Source of the DNA: a virus
DNA: 64,000 nt
IMG/VR virus record: IMGVR_UViG_3300014501_000001
Coordinates: 1-64,000 of that record
Strand: one strand, 5' to 3'
Below are positions 6,346 to 60,511 of the stretch, piece after piece. Each line of letters starts with the position of its first letter. Within the stretch, counting starts at the first letter, position 1. Made by a program: the position numbers and the translations under genes. Under the pieces are notes generated by a model. That model was not told the DNA's origin. It worked only from the letters and a program-made list of their open reading frames with translations, and did not search any database.

Positions 6346-6758
6346 GACGCCTCCCGGCAGGCGCGAGGCAGAACGGATGCCAGGAACTCGCGGGCCACGT
6401 CAGCGGCCCGGTGCGCGGACGGCTCGGCTACGCAGTAGCAGCCGTCACGGTCCTCGTTCGCGTCATGCTCGATGCCCTGCGCCGTGCCCTCCAGCCAGGC
6501 GGCGACGGCGAGCGCGACTGCTGGCTGCATAGCTGCCACGTAGCGGGCGTCCGCGTGGTCCGCCTTCCACTCCTTCCGGCCGAACATCGCGACCCGCTTG
6601 CGGTCCCGCAGGTGCCCGTCGTTGAGTACCTGGCAGCCCTCGAAGCCCATGCACAGGTGATCCCAGTTGCCGGAGGTTGCGCCCTCGGCGAGTCCCCGCA
6701 TCATTCGCGCGGCTTCGCGCAGGCTGGCCATGACCTCGGCGGATTCGGTGGCGCTCAT
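6342..6758 (-). CDS. hypothetical protein, 138 aa, paralogue of the 15957-16415 product
   Basis: I placed the start at 6758 because the codons upstream lie over another gene and look non-coding. Residues 30-70 share a clear block with the protein at 15957-16415: HxCMGxEGC, then NDGHLR, a short gap and GRKEWKADH. The conserved Cys, His and Asp residues suggest metal binding. It is a two-member family inside one element, present in both early operons. No known domain recognised. Confidence 0.65.
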   Translation of the reverse strand: MSATESAEVMASLREAARMMRGLAEGATSGNWDHLCMGFEGCQVLNDGHLRDRKRVAMFGRKEWKADHADARYVAAMQPAVALAVAAWLEGTAQGIEHDANEDRDGCYCVAEPSAHRAADVAREFLASVLPRACREAS

Positions 6759-7054
6759 CGCCCGATCACCGCCCTGCCGGTCCCGCTGCACTCCGTACCG
6801 GGGCACAGCACGTGGCTGTGAGTGCCTACCGTCCCGTTGTCCACCCGGACCTGACGGAGGCACTGGGGGCAGTAGACGAGGCCGTGGCGGGCTACGGGCC
6901 GGTAGTCCTCGCAGCTTGCGCGGTGGGTTTCGTGGCGCCCGGTGCCGCTGCCGACCCCGAAGCATTTGGGGCAGACGTAGCCGATGCTCACCGGCTGGGG
7001 CATGGCCAGGGTCACGTTCCGGCCTGTCACCGGGAGGGCTGCCGGGGCGCTCAT
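6755..7054 (-). CDS. zinc-ribbon protein, 99 aa
   Basis: Start at 7054, with ATGA overlap to the gene upstream. Several Cys pairs are visible: CPKC near residue 28, a single Cys near 48, CPQC near 62, and CPGTEC near 85. Glycine-rich turns lie between them (GVGSGTGRH). The pattern recalls DnaJ-type Cys-rich modules. A role in nucleic-acid or protein binding is likely but unproven. Confidence 0.6.
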   Translation of the reverse strand: MSAPAALPVTGRNVTLAMPQPVSIGYVCPKCFGVGSGTGRHETHRASCEDYRPVARHGLVYCPQCLRQVRVDNGTVGTHSHVLCPGTECSGTGRAVIGR

Positions 7055-7248
7055 GACGCACTCTCCGTCTGCTGCAGCGCCTCGCGGCGGGAAGCGCACC
7101 ACGCGGAGAACTCAGCGACGTGATCGCGTATCCGCTGCTGCTGCCCGTAGGCGGTCCTGACGGTGCGCGCGTGGCGTCCCCGGCTGGTCAGCCCGCGCCA
7201 TGCGTGGCGCTGCTCGCGCCTCAGCACGCGCGTTCCCTGGGGCCTCAT
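7051..7248 (-). CDS. basic small protein, 65 aa
   Basis: Arg-rich throughout (about one residue in five) with a helical C-terminal half. Probably binds nucleic acid. Four-base overlap with the next gene and with the 14-codon leader ORF upstream. Confidence 0.55.
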   Translation of the reverse strand: MRPQGTRVLRREQRHAWRGLTSRGRHARTVRTAYGQQQRIRDHVAEFSAWCASRREALQQTESAS

Positions 7249-7289
7249 AGCGCGCCCTCGTCAGTGACAAGGGGTGCTTTGGTGGACAT
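7245..7289 (-). CDS. 14-codon leader peptide ORF
   Basis: A 14-residue frame (MSTKAPLVTDEGAL) with a very good ribosome site (GGGAGG, 6 bases before the ATG). It ends in an ATGA overlap with the 65-aa gene. About 75 bases separate it from the gene upstream, so it marks the start of a sub-operon. It may serve only to load ribosomes onto the transcript. Confidence 0.45.
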   Translation of the reverse strand: MSTKAPLVTDEGAL

Positions 7290-7364
7290 TGCGGTTCCTC
7301 CCTGTATCGTGGTCGTGCGGTTCCTTCCGGGGCGTCAGTGGTAGCTGGCGCCCCGTTTCACGTC

Positions 7365-7556
7365 TCAGGCCGCGTCGGCGCCCTTCTTGCCTGCCGCTTC
7401 CGCTAGCCCCTCGTCCAGCAGCCGCACTGCCCGTTCCAGGGGAGCCGGTGACCGTCCGGGAGATGCGGCGAGGGCGTCACGTGCTGCCTTCTCCCCTGCC
7501 GCGCGGACCGCGTGCTGGCCGGGGCAGGACTCGCGGGGAGCGGTACTGGCGGTCAT
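7365..7556 (-). CDS. hypothetical protein, 63 aa
   Basis: Ala-rich, charged and helical. Overlaps the stop of the HTH gene upstream by four bases. No motif recognised. Confidence 0.55.
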   Translation of the reverse strand: MTASTAPRESCPGQHAVRAAGEKAARDALAASPGRSPAPLERAVRLLDEGLAEAAGKKGADAA

Positions 7557-7804
7557 GCGGCACCGCCCGTTCCGGGAAGCTCGATCTCGCCGCGCTCGGC
7601 CGCCTGATACCAGCGCTCGTACTTGCTGCCGGTCCTGTCCCAGTGGACGCCCAGCAGGCCCGCAGCCTCGATGGCGGTTGCGCCCTTGTGCCGGAGGTCG
7701 GCGTACTGACGCACGCGCTCAGCGAAGGCACCGCGCAGTGCGGCTCCTGCTCCCGGCACGTTCCCGGCTGCCCTGTTGCGGGCTGCCACGTCGGGGCGCT
7801 TCAC
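7553..7804 (-). CDS. HTH-containing hypothetical protein, 83 aa
   Basis: The GTG at 7804 overlaps the repressor stop (GTGA), so I prefer it to the longer frame starting at 7834. Residues 40-65 read as a helix-turn-helix (GATAIEAAGLLGVHWDRTGS), followed by an aromatic helix. It follows the XRE gene directly and may be a transcription or excision factor. Confidence 0.6.
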   Translation of the reverse strand: MKRPDVAARNRAAGNVPGAGAALRGAFAERVRQYADLRHKGATAIEAAGLLGVHWDRTGSKYERWYQAAERGEIELPGTGGAA

Positions 7805-49759: not shown

Positions 49760-51748
49760 GTGAGCACCCCGTATGCGGCGAGCATCATCGTTTCCCCTGC
49801 AGGGAACGGGCAGGCCGGGGTAACCATCTCACCAGGAGGACTGCCAGGGCCGTCAGCGCCGGGTACGTACTACCTGGATTCCTACACCGGATCCGATGAC
49901 GCGAAGATGACGGCGGCCCTGACCGCCCTGTTCGCCGCCACCCCGGCGGGCGGGACGATCATCCTCGCGCCGCGTGCCTACAGCTGCTCGCTCCAGTCGT
50001 GGGCGACGGCCTACAGCGCGGGCGTTGCCACGGCGGTGAAAATCCAGGGCGCCGGCGCGGGCTTCAACGGGGCGTGGGGCGCCCCGGAGGGTGCCACGAC
50101 CGTCACGTTCACCTACTCCGGCAGCGGCGCCGCGATGATGGATTTCCAGCACATCGGCACTATCGAGATATGCGGGATCCAGTTCATCCAGGCGAACACC
50201 GGTAAGCCGTTTTTGCTGACCACGAACGCGACGCCGAACCTGCACGACAACGTGTGGTCCGGCGGCGGCACCGGGGTCACCTGCGCGACGGACGCGATCG
50301 TGCTCGGCGGTACCGGGACCACGGTCGGCTCCGGCGACACCGCCCCGTACCAGGGCTATCAGGGCGACATCTACCGCAACTTCTTCGACGGCATCCGCCG
50401 CCCGGTGCTGTTCCAGGAGTACGCGAACTCCGTCCAGGTCCACGGCAACACCATCTCGCTGACCTGCGGCAGCAACCTCTACCAGGGCTCCGCGTTCGAG
50501 ATGCTGGGGTCGGGCAGCGGCTCCTGCTCGGGCAACGCGGTGTACGGCAACTGCATCGAGTGCACGCACTATTCGTTTGCCGTCCGGGCGCAGTATGCCG
50601 TGGGCAACACGCTCGGCCCGAACGGGCTGTTCGACATGTCAACCCCGTGGATCGCCGGCTACTACCTGGGGCCGAACGCGGGCTCTAACGAGGTCATCGA
50701 CGGGGAGCGCACTACGGTCAGTGCCCCGCTGTGCTGGGACCTGAGTCCCGGCTCGAACAACCGGCAGCGGAACGCGGCGCGCGGCTCCGGGCAGTACGAG
50801 CGCTTCAGTACCCCGGTGGGCTTCTACGGCACGGCAGGACCGCCGCAGAGCTTCTACTTCGGCCAGGGCGTCATCGGGGTCGAGAAGACCGGCAACCAGG
50901 CTTACTGGGAGACCCTGCCGGGAGTCAATCCGTACCCGCAGGTGGCGCTGTTCACGATCGCCGCCACCCAGTTCACTGACGGTAACCTGGTCAGCGGCTC
51001 GCAGTGGGTCACCAGCCTGACCGCCGCTTTCGCCCTCGCCGACGTGGGCCAGGCCATCGGCGCGACCGGGATCCCGTCGCAGACCCAGATCATGCTGACG
51101 GTCACCGCGACCACCGCATTCCCGTGGCAGGCGTCCCGCGCCTACGCGGCCGGGGACGTGATCCGGCCGGCCAGCGCGAACGCTCACCTGTACCAGTGCG
51201 CCGTCGCCGGGACCACTGCTGCCAGCCAGCCCGTGTTCCCCGTCAACGGCAGCACGGTCACTGACGGCGGCGTGACCTGGCAGGATCTCGGCACCTCGGC
51301 CGCCTGCTGCATCAGCAACCCGGCGACCGCGACCGCTAGCGGCGTCACGATCGGCATCTCCCGGGCAGCCGGGACCAGTACCGAGGTCATCGCGTTCGAG
51401 CGGACCCACATCCGCAGTCAGGGCAGCGCGCCGTCCGGGGCTGCCGGTGCCGGGGCGGGCTCATCGCCGTCCGCGATATCGGCCACGGGCACTGACCTGG
51501 CCTTCACGTTCAGTATCACGACGGGCGGATCCGGGACCGCCGCCGGCGCGATGTTCTCGGTGGCGCCGGCGCTCGGCTGGACGGCGGCGCCGCACTTCAC
51601 CATGACGGCCGGGAACTCCGCGACGGCTTCCCTGATGGCGGGCGGGTTCTGGCTGACGACCACCGGCGGCGGCACCGTGACGGCGAGCTTCGTGAACGCC
51701 CCGGTGATCTCCACCGCCTACGTGTTCGCCTTCACGGCCATCCAGTAG
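49760..51748 (+). CDS. parallel beta-helix fibre-like protein, 662 aa
   Basis: GTG start. Residues 30-270 have Gly/Asn/Thr-rich short strands (IYRNFFDGIRRPVLFQ, VQVHGNTISLTCGSN) typical of right-handed beta-helix tailspikes or pectate-lyase folds. The C-terminal 250 residues are beta-sandwich-like repeats rich in Ala/Thr/Ser. A role in cell-wall or receptor binding is inferred. Confidence 0.65.
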   Translation: MSTPYAASIIVSPAGNGQAGVTISPGGLPGPSAPGTYYLDSYTGSDDAKMTAALTALFAATPAGGTIILAPRAYSCSLQSWATAYSAGVATAVKIQGAGAGFNGAWGAPEGATTVTFTYSGSGAAMMDFQHIGTIEICGIQFIQANTGKPFLLTTNATPNLHDNVWSGGGTGVTCATDAIVLGGTGTTVGSGDTAPYQGYQGDIYRNFFDGIRRPVLFQEYANSVQVHGNTISLTCGSNLYQGSAFEMLGSGSGSCSGNAVYGNCIECTHYSFAVRAQYAVGNTLGPNGLFDMSTPWIAGYYLGPNAGSNEVIDGERTTVSAPLCWDLSPGSNNRQRNAARGSGQYERFSTPVGFYGTAGPPQSFYFGQGVIGVEKTGNQAYWETLPGVNPYPQVALFTIAATQFTDGNLVSGSQWVTSLTAAFALADVGQAIGATGIPSQTQIMLTVTATTAFPWQASRAYAAGDVIRPASANAHLYQCAVAGTTAASQPVFPVNGSTVTDGGVTWQDLGTSAACCISNPATATASGVTIGISRAAGTSTEVIAFERTHIRSQGSAPSGAAGAGAGSSPSAISATGTDLAFTFSITTGGSGTAAGAMFSVAPALGWTAAPHFTMTAGNSATASLMAGGFWLTTTGGGTVTASFVNAPVISTAYVFAFTAIQ

Positions 51749-57073: not shown

Positions 57074-57772
57074 ATGGCGGACATTCTCGAAGCAACGATC
57101 GCCCCGGCTGACCAGCTCAGCCCCACGGGCGCAGAGGTCGCCGGCAACGTCGCGCAGTTCTCCCGCACGGGGGAAATGCTGAAGGCCCGGCTCCCGAACC
57201 TCGTCAAGGGAGCAGGCTACGCCGGGACCGGCAACGCCCCCCTCACCGACGAGATCCAGATCATGACCAAGGCATCCCAGGCCGCTATCGACCTGCGGCA
57301 GGCAACCTGGGACGGCATCACCGACAAGCCGGCCGTGGTCAAGGGCATGAACCAGGGGTTCCTGAACCAGTTCGGGTACCTGAAGACGGCCCTGACGGCC
57401 CCGTCGCTGATGGACACCCTCGCGGGTGTCTTCGGGCAGATGCCCGGCGGCAGCGAGGCGTTCAAGAATTTCACGGCCGGCAATCTCGGGGTGGGGTCGG
57501 TGTACGGTTTGGTGCCGTTTGACCTCATGCGACCGAGTCGTCTGATCTACCCGGTATATACCGTTTTCCGCAACAAATTCCCACGGCCCCAGGGCCAGGG
57601 CACGAGCGCGCAGGAACGGGTCATCACCGGCATCTCTGGCAGCCAGACCGGCGGCCAGGGTGTCCTCGACGTGTCCATCACCGAGCTGGTTCAGAGCGGC
57701 GGTACGTTCTCGAACTGGCCCCTCAACCTGCCGCCTTCGGGCTCGCAGACTGAGGTCTTCCTCAATGTGCCT
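57074..57772 (+). CDS. major capsid protein, exon 1 (233 codons)
   Basis: Starts at an ATG after AAGGAGTGC. The protein has SQAAIDLRQATWDGITD near 80 and NFTAGNLGVGSVYGLVPFDL near 135, with alternating strands, as in HK97-fold capsid proteins. The unspliced frame runs into a stop at 57782, 10 bases past the predicted splice site. Joined to exons 2 and 3 it reads NVP, AASNNRYRFFGISEQ, then LAQFAGQG, FEDIAGLANL without a gap. About 610 residues in total. Position after the protease supports the call; the exact 5' splice site (after CCT) is inferred from frame and a GCCU/GGGC P1 pairing. Confidence 0.8.
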
Positions 57773-59102
57773 TGCATCCTGTAGGGCCGCCGCGCCGCGA
57801 GGCGCACGCGATAACCGCGAGAATTGCTGGAAAGCCCGTACCACATGCACATGCCACAACGTGGGGCGAAAGCCCGAGCGTGATGGCCTGAAAAATGTGC
57901 ATTAGGGGTAATCAGCAGCCGAGCCCGCCTGGACCGCGACACGCGGCACCGACGGGATGGTTCAGAGACTATGCACGCGGGTTCTGGTAATCTTTAACGA
58001 TGGAGATTAATAACGATGACTGGCAGATAATGGCCGGTCAGGAGCGGGAAGAGTTCATTCGGCGCTACGTGGCTGGCGAGGCCCTGACATCCCTCGCCAG
58101 GGAGTATCACCACGGGCCTGCCACGCTGAGGGCAATCCTCGTCAGCGTGGGGGTGCCAGTCCGGACAAGGCCCGGATACGCCAAGGGCAGGAAGTGGTCA
58201 GAAGCGCAGCGTGAAGCTCACAGGCGCACAACTAGCACCCCTGAGCACAGGCAGAAGATGCGCGCGATCATGCTGAAACGCCTCCCGGTCATGCGCGGAG
58301 CGGCGACGAACTCTCCGATCGAGCGCCGGATGCAAGATGCGCTCATGGCGGTCGGCATCGGCTTCACAACGCAGTCTGTCCTGCTGGACCGCTACCTGGT
58401 GGACATCGAGATCCACCAGGCACCCATCGTGATTGAGGCTGACGGCGCGCAGCACACACTGCGCATCCAGAAGGCCAAGGACGCCGAGCGCGACACGGCT
58501 CTCACTGCCGCCGGGTACCGGGTTTTCCGGTTCACGGGCAGCGAGATCAATGCCGACGCCGTGCTGTGTGTCCGGCGTGTTATCGACGCTTGCTTCCTGG
58601 TTCCCGACCAGGAGCCCATCTATGAAATCCGCACGGCTTTCACTGGCGAACTCCACCCGCTCTGGAAGGGCGGCAAGCGGGAGTTCACCTGCGAGATCTG
58701 CGGGGTCGTGTTCATGGCTCAGCCTGCGCACCGCAAGGGGCCGCACATCTACTGCAGCATGCAGTGCAATGGTGCAGCCAAGCGCGGCAAGACGGCGAGT
58801 GCTGAGACCCGTGCCAAGATCAGCGCCGCGAATAGGGGCAAGGAGCGCAAGCCCCCGCCACCGTTCACGGCCGAGCATCGCGCCAAGATCAGCGCAGGGC
58901 TTAAGGGCAGGCCAAAGACTGCGGAGCACGCCGCCAAGGTTGGTGCAGCGCAGGCTGGCAGGCCAAAGTCCGCCGAGACTCGGGCAAAGATCAGCGAAAC
59001 GCTCAAGCGTCGAAACGCAAACCAGAACAAGATAGAGTCCGCTCTGCATGGAGACATGCAGAGGCCGGCAGAAATGACCGGCCCCGCCACCCTGTTCTGA
59101 GG
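57773..59102 (+). ncRNA. group I intron 1 in the major capsid gene
   Basis: Core elements are in order: P AATTGCTGGAAAGCCC (57822-57837), Q AATCAGCAGCCGAGCC (57910-57925), R GGTTCAGAGACTATGCACG (57959-57977) and S AAGATAGAGTCC (59029-59040). GCUG in P pairs with CAGC in Q (P4), GACU in R pairs with AGUC in S (P7). Two perfect hairpins follow (59042-59063 and 59063-59083) as P9 parts, then a terminal G before exon 2. A 366-codon endonuclease fills the loop between R and S. The intron would splice itself from the message. Confidence 0.85.
58000..59100 (+). CDS. intron-encoded EDxHD/Vsr-like homing endonuclease with NUMOD3 repeats, 366 aa
   Basis: An N-terminal helical region is followed by a Vsr/DUF559-type nuclease (about 104-195): SPIERRMQDALMAVG, LLDRYLVDIEI, IVIEADGAQH and KDAERDTALTAAGYRVFRF, with the acidic, His and Asp residues of that fold. 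Next is a zinc finger (CEICGVVF, YCSMQC) and three NUMOD3-like repeats (SAETRAKISAANRGK type). Homing enzymes of this kind cut intron-less alleles so that the intron is copied in. Its last codons overlap the intron core (S and P9), leaving 2 bases before exon 2. Confidence 0.85.
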   Translation: MEINNDDWQIMAGQEREEFIRRYVAGEALTSLAREYHHGPATLRAILVSVGVPVRTRPGYAKGRKWSEAQREAHRRTTSTPEHRQKMRAIMLKRLPVMRGAATNSPIERRMQDALMAVGIGFTTQSVLLDRYLVDIEIHQAPIVIEADGAQHTLRIQKAKDAERDTALTAAGYRVFRFTGSEINADAVLCVRRVIDACFLVPDQEPIYEIRTAFTGELHPLWKGGKREFTCEICGVVFMAQPAHRKGPHIYCSMQCNGAAKRGKTASAETRAKISAANRGKERKPPPPFTAEHRAKISAGLKGRPKTAEHAAKVGAAQAGRPKSAETRAKISETLKRRNANQNKIESALHGDMQRPAEMTGPATLF

Positions 59103-59180
59103 GCGGCGAGTAACAACAGGTACCGTTTCTTCGGCATCAGCGAGCAGCTTTCCTGGCTCGCGCAGTTCGCAGGACAGGGT
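59103..59180 (+). CDS. major capsid protein, exon 2 (26 codons)
   Basis: The frame reads AASNNRYRFFGISEQ then LSWLAQFAGQG. It fits between exon 1 and exon 3, and the AQFAGQG motif followed by FED is a pattern of capsid proteins of large actinophages. The frame runs from just after the endonuclease stop and meets a stop at 59205 inside intron 2. It is flanked by G (intron end) and T (exon end before intron 2), as group I splicing requires. Confidence 0.75.
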
Positions 59181-59455
59181 CAACTTAGAGGCCCCCTCGC
59201 AGGGTGACCTGCGAGTTCACTCGGCACCGTAACGGTGAACCCCGCCAAGCCAAGGGGAATACCGTGGAAACCTCGCACTACAGGGTTCCGTAGAGAGCAA
59301 GCGTGCCGCGCCTGTGTCATGGGACCTGCCCCGAGTGCATCAGGGGCAGCGGACCGCAGGCGAAGTTGTGCTCCGGGCTCGCGCGATGGAAAAGCGCGAG
59401 AGGCGTCCAGAAATGAGGCGCCCGGCCGTCCCCAGTGGCGGCAGGTAACAGTTCG
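59181..59455 (+). ncRNA. short self-splicing intron 2 in the major capsid gene, class unresolved
   Basis: About 275 bases, no ORF. The upstream exon ends in AGGGU and GCCC lies a few bases inside (P1-like pairing with U.G). CTCGCAG/CTGCGAG (59196-59215 area) is a perfect hairpin, AATACCGTGGAAACC (59258-59272) resembles a P box, and CTCGCGC/GCGCGAG gives another 7-bp stem near the 3' end. R and S elements are not clear. The borders are set by the frame: GQG before and FEDIAGL after. Confidence 0.6.
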
Positions 59456-60511
59456 TTCGAGGACATTGCCGGCCTGGCCAACCTGATCATGCTTCAGGAG
59501 GCCATGCTCGGAGAGGAATATCAGTTCATAGCGGGCACTTCCGCTCCGCTGGCCGTTCCCGCAGCACCGACCTGCACTGTCCGCACCGCCGGCTCCAATG
59601 AGACGGCGCTCAACACGAACATCACCGCGGTCAAGGTGGCCGCGACCAACTACTTCGGCTCGACCGCCGTCTCGGCGGCCTCGTCCACGTTCGCCGTGGC
59701 GTCCGGCCAGGTCGTGGATGTCACGATCGCCCCGGTCGCGGGCACGATGACCTACTCGATCTACGCCTTCACGTCCGGTTCCAGCTACTACCTGCTGGCA
59801 TCGGGCGTCGGCGGCCAGAAGTACACCCTGCAGGGCTTCTCGTCCCTGCCGACCGCCGTCGTCCCCCCGGCTGCCGACACCGGCACCGGGAAGAACACCC
59901 GGATGGAAGGCGTCATCCCGACGCTCACCGGGGCGTCGGCCGCTGCGGGGGTCTACCCCAGCGGCTGGCAGGGCGGCTACGTCAACCAGTCCGTGGGAAC
60001 CCACCTGTCCTACAACGCCATCTACACGGCGCTGGACAGCCTGTGGGAGTCCAACTCCAACTCACCGGGCGCATTCAAGGCGGACCCGCAGGAGATCGTC
60101 GGCGACGGCGGCGACATCATGCGCCTGTCCAACGACGTGATCTCGGCGGGGACGGCGACGAACTACCGCCTGTTCCTGGAGCAGCAGGAAGTCGGGGGAA
60201 TGCGCGTCGGCGGCGCCGTCAGCGAGTTCCAGAACCCGATCACCCGGTCCATCCTCAAGCTGGTCGTCCACCCCTGGTTCACGCAGGGCACGGCGGCCTT
60301 CATGACCTACCAGCCGCCGATGACCTACTCCCAGATCAGCAATGCCTGGGAAGCCCGAATGGTGCAAGATTACGCCAGTATTGCCTGGCCTGTCATAGAT
60401 GCGACCTTTAGGTTCTCAATCTTCTGGTATGGGGCCTTGATCGCGAATGCGCCATTCTTCTCCGGTTTGCTCCAGGGGCTCCAGATTAGTGACGTTACGC
60501 CCTACTCCTGA
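59456..60511 (+). CDS. major capsid protein, exon 3 (351 codons)
   Basis: Begins FEDIAGLANLIMLQEAMLGEE. A fibronectin or Ig-like insertion rich in Thr/Ala/Val follows (CTVRTAGSNETALNTN...YSIYAF), then the main capsid fold resumes (GTHLSYNAIYTALDSLWE, PITRSILKLVVHPWF). An ORF caller would start it at a GTG at 59435, inside the intron. Ends 60 bases before a strong hairpin. Confidence 0.8.
   Translation, partial: FEDIAGLANLIMLQEAMLGEEYQFIAGTSAPLAVPAAPTCTVRTAGSNETALNTNITAVKVAATNYFGSTAVSAASSTFAVASGQVVDVTIAPVAGTMTYSIYAFTSGSSYYLLASGVGGQKYTLQGFSSLPTAVVPPAADTGTGKNTRMEGVIPTLTGASAAAGVYPSGWQGGYVNQSVGTHLSYNAIYTALDSLWESNSNSPGAFKADPQEIVGDGGDIMRLSNDVISAGTATNYRLFLEQQEVGGMRVGGAVSEFQNPITRSILKLVVHPWFTQGTAAFMTYQPPMTYSQISNAWEARMVQDYASIAWPVIDATFRFSIFWYGALIANAPFFSGLLQGLQISDVTPYS

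Follow-up and report, generated by a model that had tools for sequence, protein, structure and literature searches.

A capsid-gene group I intron of a soil phage whose homing endonuclease ORF extends through the 3' half of the ribozyme

The window, a stretch of 64,000 nucleotides of soil phage DNA taken from an IMG/VR virus record of 113 kb (IMGVR_UViG_3300014501_000001), contains a homing endonuclease ORF whose last codons coincide with the 3' core of a predicted group I ribozyme. The questions raised by this locus are whether intron and overlap are genuine, how the same bases may have come to be used twice, and how translation of the gene and splicing of the RNA might be kept apart.

Analysis of the flanking ORFs indicated that 57074-57784 and 59435-60511 are pieces of a single capsid gene, both being matched by phrog_13692. 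PHROGs assigns no function to this family; its identity as major capsid gene is suggested by its position and by the parallel with cluster J phages. Sixteen relatives were found in viral contigs, the majority of them intron-less at the sites of the window (L004-L014 and L016), and the exon and intron ends were set by alignment to uninterrupted capsid genes together with the capsid reading frame. Exon 1 (57074..57772, ending GTG CCT; phrog_13692 and intron-less homologues), exon 2 (59121..59180, beginning TAC CGT; homologue alignment and spliced frame) and exon 3 (59456..60511; phrog_13692, homologues and spliced frame), all on the plus strand, join into one open frame of 604 aa. Exon 1 ends in T, so that U57772 precedes the 5' splice site, and the last base of intron 1 is G59120. 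Intron-less homologues, the capsid frame, this terminal G and the P10 pairing all place the end of intron 1 at 59120. The earlier note had put it at 59102, 18 nt too early, and had left 2 bases between the stop codon and exon 2 where the gap is 20 nt; the site at 59102 was discarded on the evidence of the homologues and of P10.

On the evidence of sequence comparison, the 1348 nt from 57773 to 59120 (plus strand) form a group I intron that interrupts this capsid gene, as homologue alignment, capsid frame, P1, P10 and covariation agree, and the observation is a real one. In P1 (57769..57787), GCCU (57769-57772)-UGC pairs with GUA (57781-57783)-GGGC (57784-57787), with the pair U57772.G57784 at the splice site, while P10 pairs UAC of exon 2 (59121-59123) with the same GUA stretch that is also used in P1. 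Pair counts located P3 (57815-57819 / 57976-57980), P4 (57824-57829 / 57913-57918), P5/P5a and P6 (57924-57927 / 57953-57956) within 57815..57980. R with the P7 5' strand is at 57965..57971 (P7 96% paired, four pairs changed on both sides), and the P8 5' arm (GTTCTGGT, 57981..57988) pairs with 59021-59028. P8 forms in all members despite their differing sequences. P7 forms between 57967-57970 and 59036-59039 as had been claimed, with the additional pair G57965-C59040; its last position is the mismatch A57971.G59035, which is tolerated, since the ORF-less introns L025 and L028 carry it as well.

The P element pattern GAGAATTGCTGGRAWRCCCG was used to search viral contigs and recovered 29 stretches, many of which belong to this intron family, are short and lack an ORF. 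After excision of the L8 ORFs, 21 introns were aligned, and a 48-pair structure was paired in 98.4% of cells of this alignment, as against 76.9% in shuffled and 28-40% in slid controls; 35 of the 48 pairs had changed on both sides, and covariation was 0.588 versus 0.166 (shuffled) and at most 0.083 (slid). The covarying helices are P3, P6, P7, P9 and P9.1, with P3 paired in 100% of cells and P4 invariant. The intron thus has the P3/P7 pseudoknot together with P4-P6, P8 and the conserved elements P, Q, R and S. A 3'-domain covariance model (R1), built from 19 introns with the window, L023 and L041 left out, matched the window at 59026-59115 with 83.5 bits (E 7e-21) and also found the capsid intron of phage LittleE (E 6e-13). 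With Rfam, no group I match was obtained on the region alone at gathering and E-value thresholds, while the genome search returned two halves of RF00028, at 57821-57974 (23.6 bits) and 58960-59061 (22.9 bits), both below the cut-off of 50. The lack of a group I match, named in the earlier note as a refutation, therefore applies only at the gathering score. RF00028 splits into two weak matches because an ORF of about 1 kb interrupts the structure, and its gathering score serves for detection and does not define a group I intron.

The ORF at 58000..59100 (plus strand) codes for 366 aa, and protein-family and fold matches identify a homing endonuclease with a Vsr/EDxHD-like nuclease and NUMOD3 repeats. 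The Vsr-type nuclease proposed earlier is borne out by DUF559 (E 3.2e-14) and by the fold, for which 3r3p_A (I-Bth0305I) ranked first (probability 1.00, target TM 0.79, E 3e-3), the sequence profile match to that enzyme being weak (E 0.007). NUMOD3 was likewise matched (E 1e-7), while of the proposed zinc finger two Cys pairs are present at about residues 231-256 and no zinc-finger family matched the protein of the window. Residues E108, D135 and E146, candidates for the catalytic EDxHD residues, are invariant in an alignment of eight members. An N-terminal helix-turn-helix region, HTH_58, missed in the earlier note, was matched in five of the eight members, that of the window not among them. 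Nucleases of the Vsr type have been described from phage introns before (PMC11878797; PDB 3R3P). The enzyme encoded here has its nuclease fold in common with I-Bth0305I (3R3P), though with only 21% identity. Compared with I-Bth0305I and the Vsr-type intron proteins of Bastillevirinae (PMC11878797), it differs in its NUMOD3 repeats, its Cys pairs and its location in a capsid gene.

Insertion of this ORF in L8 of intron 1 is supported by covariation and homologues. P, Q and R lie upstream of it, and its last 26 codons cross the 3' half of the ribozyme, an 80 nt overlap that starts in P8 and reaches the P9.2 loop. The coding part comprises the P8 3' arm (59021..59028, pairing with 57981-57988), S with the P7 3' strand (59029..59040, read as K I E S; alignment and covariation), the P9 hairpin (59042..59063; 98.4% paired, five pairs changed on both sides), the P9.1 hairpin (59063..59083; 100% paired, six pairs changed on both sides) and, of P9.2 (59084..59106; located by sequence and by the shared stop of L023 and L041), the 5' arm and the loop. 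The stop codon TGA (59098-59100) lies in the P9.2 loop. The claim that S and the P9 hairpins lie inside the ORF, the same bases serving ribozyme and C-terminus, thus agrees with both covariation and homologues; the P8 3' arm and the third hairpin, P9.2, had been missed. Most family members have T at the position equivalent to 59035, where it forms an A-U pair and S, read as AAG ATA TAG, closes the frame. In the extended ORFs the third of these codons is GAG, G59035 replacing the T of TAG, and L023 regains the pair at the end of P7 as C-G.

A direct search of viral contigs for close relatives of the endonuclease returned none; they were found by the ribozyme pattern followed by endonuclease alignment. 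L023 and L041 (the latter identical to L045 over the ORF) carry homologous endonucleases with 52-55% local identity to that of the window. Their introns occupy the capsid site of intron 1, and their ORFs share its extension and its stop (...KVESDLRGDAQRAAETTAPATLF). The endonucleases of L039 and L051, also at this site, stop at J8/7, and that of L053, at a different capsid site, stops in the P9 loop. The ORF of L074 crosses S and P9 in an intron at the second capsid site, and that of L017 runs from Q/R across S and beyond the 3' splice site. Here, then, an ORF extends from a peripheral loop into the core and varies in length among relatives, and the overlap fits core creep, a published phenomenon (PMC3073962); stops at successive points of the ribozyme are what that hypothesis predicts. 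We infer the order of the steps from the stop positions only, the nuclease-domain tree not resolving it.

Other members of the family are arranged differently. The ORFs of L015 (6899-7696), L017 (6523-7776) and L018 (7383-8240) begin upstream of R, and the 5' half of the core (Q/R and the P7 5' strand) is therefore coding too. L040 (8397-9490) harbors a LAGLIDADG-like ORF antisense within L8. L003, whose capsid protein is 97% identical to that of the window, carries a related intron 10 nt upstream (at 6593-7760) with an unrelated HNH-like endonuclease that stops before P8, so that site and enzyme both appear to have been switched between near relatives. Near 2993-3330 of L038, L8 holds a short remnant like the C-terminus of an L039-type endonuclease (LRNLGIPVRQQGGRRVKGGFYQ), which looks as though homing had been followed by loss of the enzyme gene.

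Analysis of the sequences upstream of the starts bears on expression. No Shine-Dalgarno sequence was found upstream of the start in the ten endonucleases examined, and in eight of them a TANNNT box precedes the start by exactly 6 nt, with gaps of 7 in L018 and 8 in L017. In the window this candidate -10 box is TAATCT (57988..57993, plus strand), 6 nt before the ATG. Among control ATG/GTG codons of the same sequences TANNNT occurred at gap 6 in 16 of 4483 (0.36%). The resulting binomial value of 1e-18 is overstated, given the partial relatedness of the ten and the higher AT content of the sequence upstream of their starts than of the rest; with local composition, the chance of TANNNT at the gap is 1-4% each. 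Among cases examined afterwards, L074 has a gap of 7 and the free-standing L015b a gap of 6, the antisense LAGLIDADG-like ORF of L040 has a gap of 7 at one of several possible ATG starts, and gp14 of LittleE has no TANNNT box before its start. The large genes of the phage at 49760, 52047 and 53709 have GGAGG-like sites instead.

This arrangement points to a separate leaderless mRNA for the endonuclease. Mycobacterial leaderless mRNAs likewise have TANNNT close to an ATG or GTG start, with neither leader nor Shine-Dalgarno sequence (PMC3898074); in the present phage the box is a putative promoter, and use of leaderless mRNA by the host is presumed. Portal and capsid homologues led to no host, giving only distant matches to phages of Arthrobacter, Brevundimonas, Thermoanaerobacterium and Alicyclobacillus, and the five matches from a scan of genome contigs, in mixed bacteria, named none either. 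Leaderless initiation was suggested earlier for hidden and intron endonucleases of mycobacteriophages, without a promoter being shown (PMC11855218). What is new here is the -10 box at a fixed gap before the endonuclease starts, a hint of separate expression. The odds are in our judgement slightly better than even that the intron endonucleases of this phage group have a leaderless promoter within the ribozyme, that their mRNA never holds the full ribozyme, and that this separation permits creep through P7-P9 without harm to splicing.

The intron, its structure, the overlap, the homologous series and the position of the -10 box are read from sequence, and the explanation that we prefer for them as a whole, with a probability of roughly 0.8, combines a mobile intron, creep of its ORF, a little-used tail and a separate leaderless transcript; splicing, cutting, the loss of an earlier stop and the separate transcript are its proposed steps. 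The ribozyme would excise intron 1 from the capsid pre-mRNA. The endonuclease, whose gene lies in the P8 loop, would cut intron-less capsid genes, into which the intron would then be copied. The ORF may formerly have reached no further than the P7 3' strand, as those of L039 and L051 do, and loss of that stop by the change of T to G in S would have let it creep across the 3' core until the next in-frame stop, that of the P9.2 loop. The tail gained in this way would probably be of little use to the enzyme, its bases being kept mainly as RNA with the frame just open. The enzyme itself would be made from its own leaderless transcript, with the -10 box inside L8 and the start at the ATG, while the capsid pre-mRNA has no ribosome-binding site ahead of the ORF. 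A transcript from 58000 could not splice, because P1 through the P7 5' strand would be missing, and translating S and P9 in it would therefore be harmless; conflict between translation and splicing would thus probably be avoided by a separate transcript that lacks most of the ribozyme.

Alternatively, the endonuclease could be translated from the capsid pre-mRNA itself, ribosomes in S and P9 unfolding the ribozyme and so regulating splicing, with a single transcript serving both purposes. Such competition has been discussed for the T4 td intron (PMC3073962) and is the usual worry with overlapping ORFs, but none of the ten starts has a Shine-Dalgarno sequence and yet TANNNT is fixed at a gap of 6-8, and we regard a single transcript as unlikely.

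More doubtful still is that the tail encoded by the ribozyme works in the enzyme, for example as a DNA-binding extension, and that the overlap is selected as RNA and protein at once. The tail is basic and comes after the NUMOD3 repeats, its frame, length and stop are shared by three phages (the window, L023 and L041) with 52-73% identity between their enzymes, and among these three all changes in the unpaired P9.2 loop are synonymous. Comparison of the window with L023 over the 26 overlap codons revealed, on the contrary, nine non-synonymous and two synonymous codons, with differences at positions 1/2/3 of 4/6/4 versus 82/66/136 in the ORF body (p 0.18 for the third-position share, not significant alone), and several of the differences are paired changes within stems. 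AlphaFold, run on a shallow alignment of eight sequences, assigned residues 342-366 a pLDDT below 50, and the close relatives L039, L051 and L053 do without the tail. The same frame is equally open in the ORF-less introns L018, L028, L035 and L038d, so that an open frame needs little selection. The overlap is probably mostly under RNA constraint, and the tail probably dispensable.

That the intron is a degenerate copy which has lost splicing, the overlap being decay of a once tidy layout, is very improbable: the A.G mismatch ending P7 could be read that way, but ORF-less introns share it, every helix is intact, both P1 and P10 form, the capsid exons join into one open frame and L023 and L041 have the same layout.

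Compared with known systems, the locus clearly exemplifies a phenomenon already described, and its relatives are unusually informative. In the core creep cases reviewed by Edgell, Chalamcharla and Belfort 2011 (PMC3073962), namely a 20 nt overlap in T4 td/I-TevI and 81 nt across P6-P9 in the LSU intron of Synechococcus lividus, an endonuclease ORF of a peripheral loop likewise enters the core up to the next in-frame stop. Enzyme family and intron are others, however, and core creep was proposed from scattered cases, whereas here several relatives of one intron family in one gene show successive ORF ends. The family includes a single base change, T to G in S, that removes an in-frame TAG and opens the frame, and such matched variants make the core creep hypothesis testable. 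The leaderless promoter, if true, would explain how a gene can cross the ribozyme core without translation and splicing contending for the same RNA. The cluster J introns (LittleE capsid and BAKA tail; PMC3706429) belong to group I as well and likewise interrupt virion genes of large phages, and that of the LittleE capsid gene splices in infected cells as determined by RT-PCR (PMC3706429), but its endonuclease is antisense and LAGLIDADG-related, and no comparable overlap with the 3' core was reported.

The capsid gene of the window harbors a second group I intron, ORF-less and of 275 nt (59181..59455, plus strand), separated from the first by the 60 nt exon. Model R1 matched its 3' domain at 59360-59450 (61.6 bits, E 9e-15), and blastn showed 81.5% identity over about 80 nt to the tail intron of a cluster J mycobacteriophage. 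Five 3'-domain matches were found in the contig of L038 (G002). The homologous capsid gene of L074 and L046 (contig IMGVR_UViG_3300027795_000039, G001:C1:56758-61271, minus strand) contains nine such matches; wherever the next capsid exon could be matched, it starts only a few bases downstream, one very short exon near residues 549-556 being unmatched. Nine group I introns thus appear to interrupt this gene.
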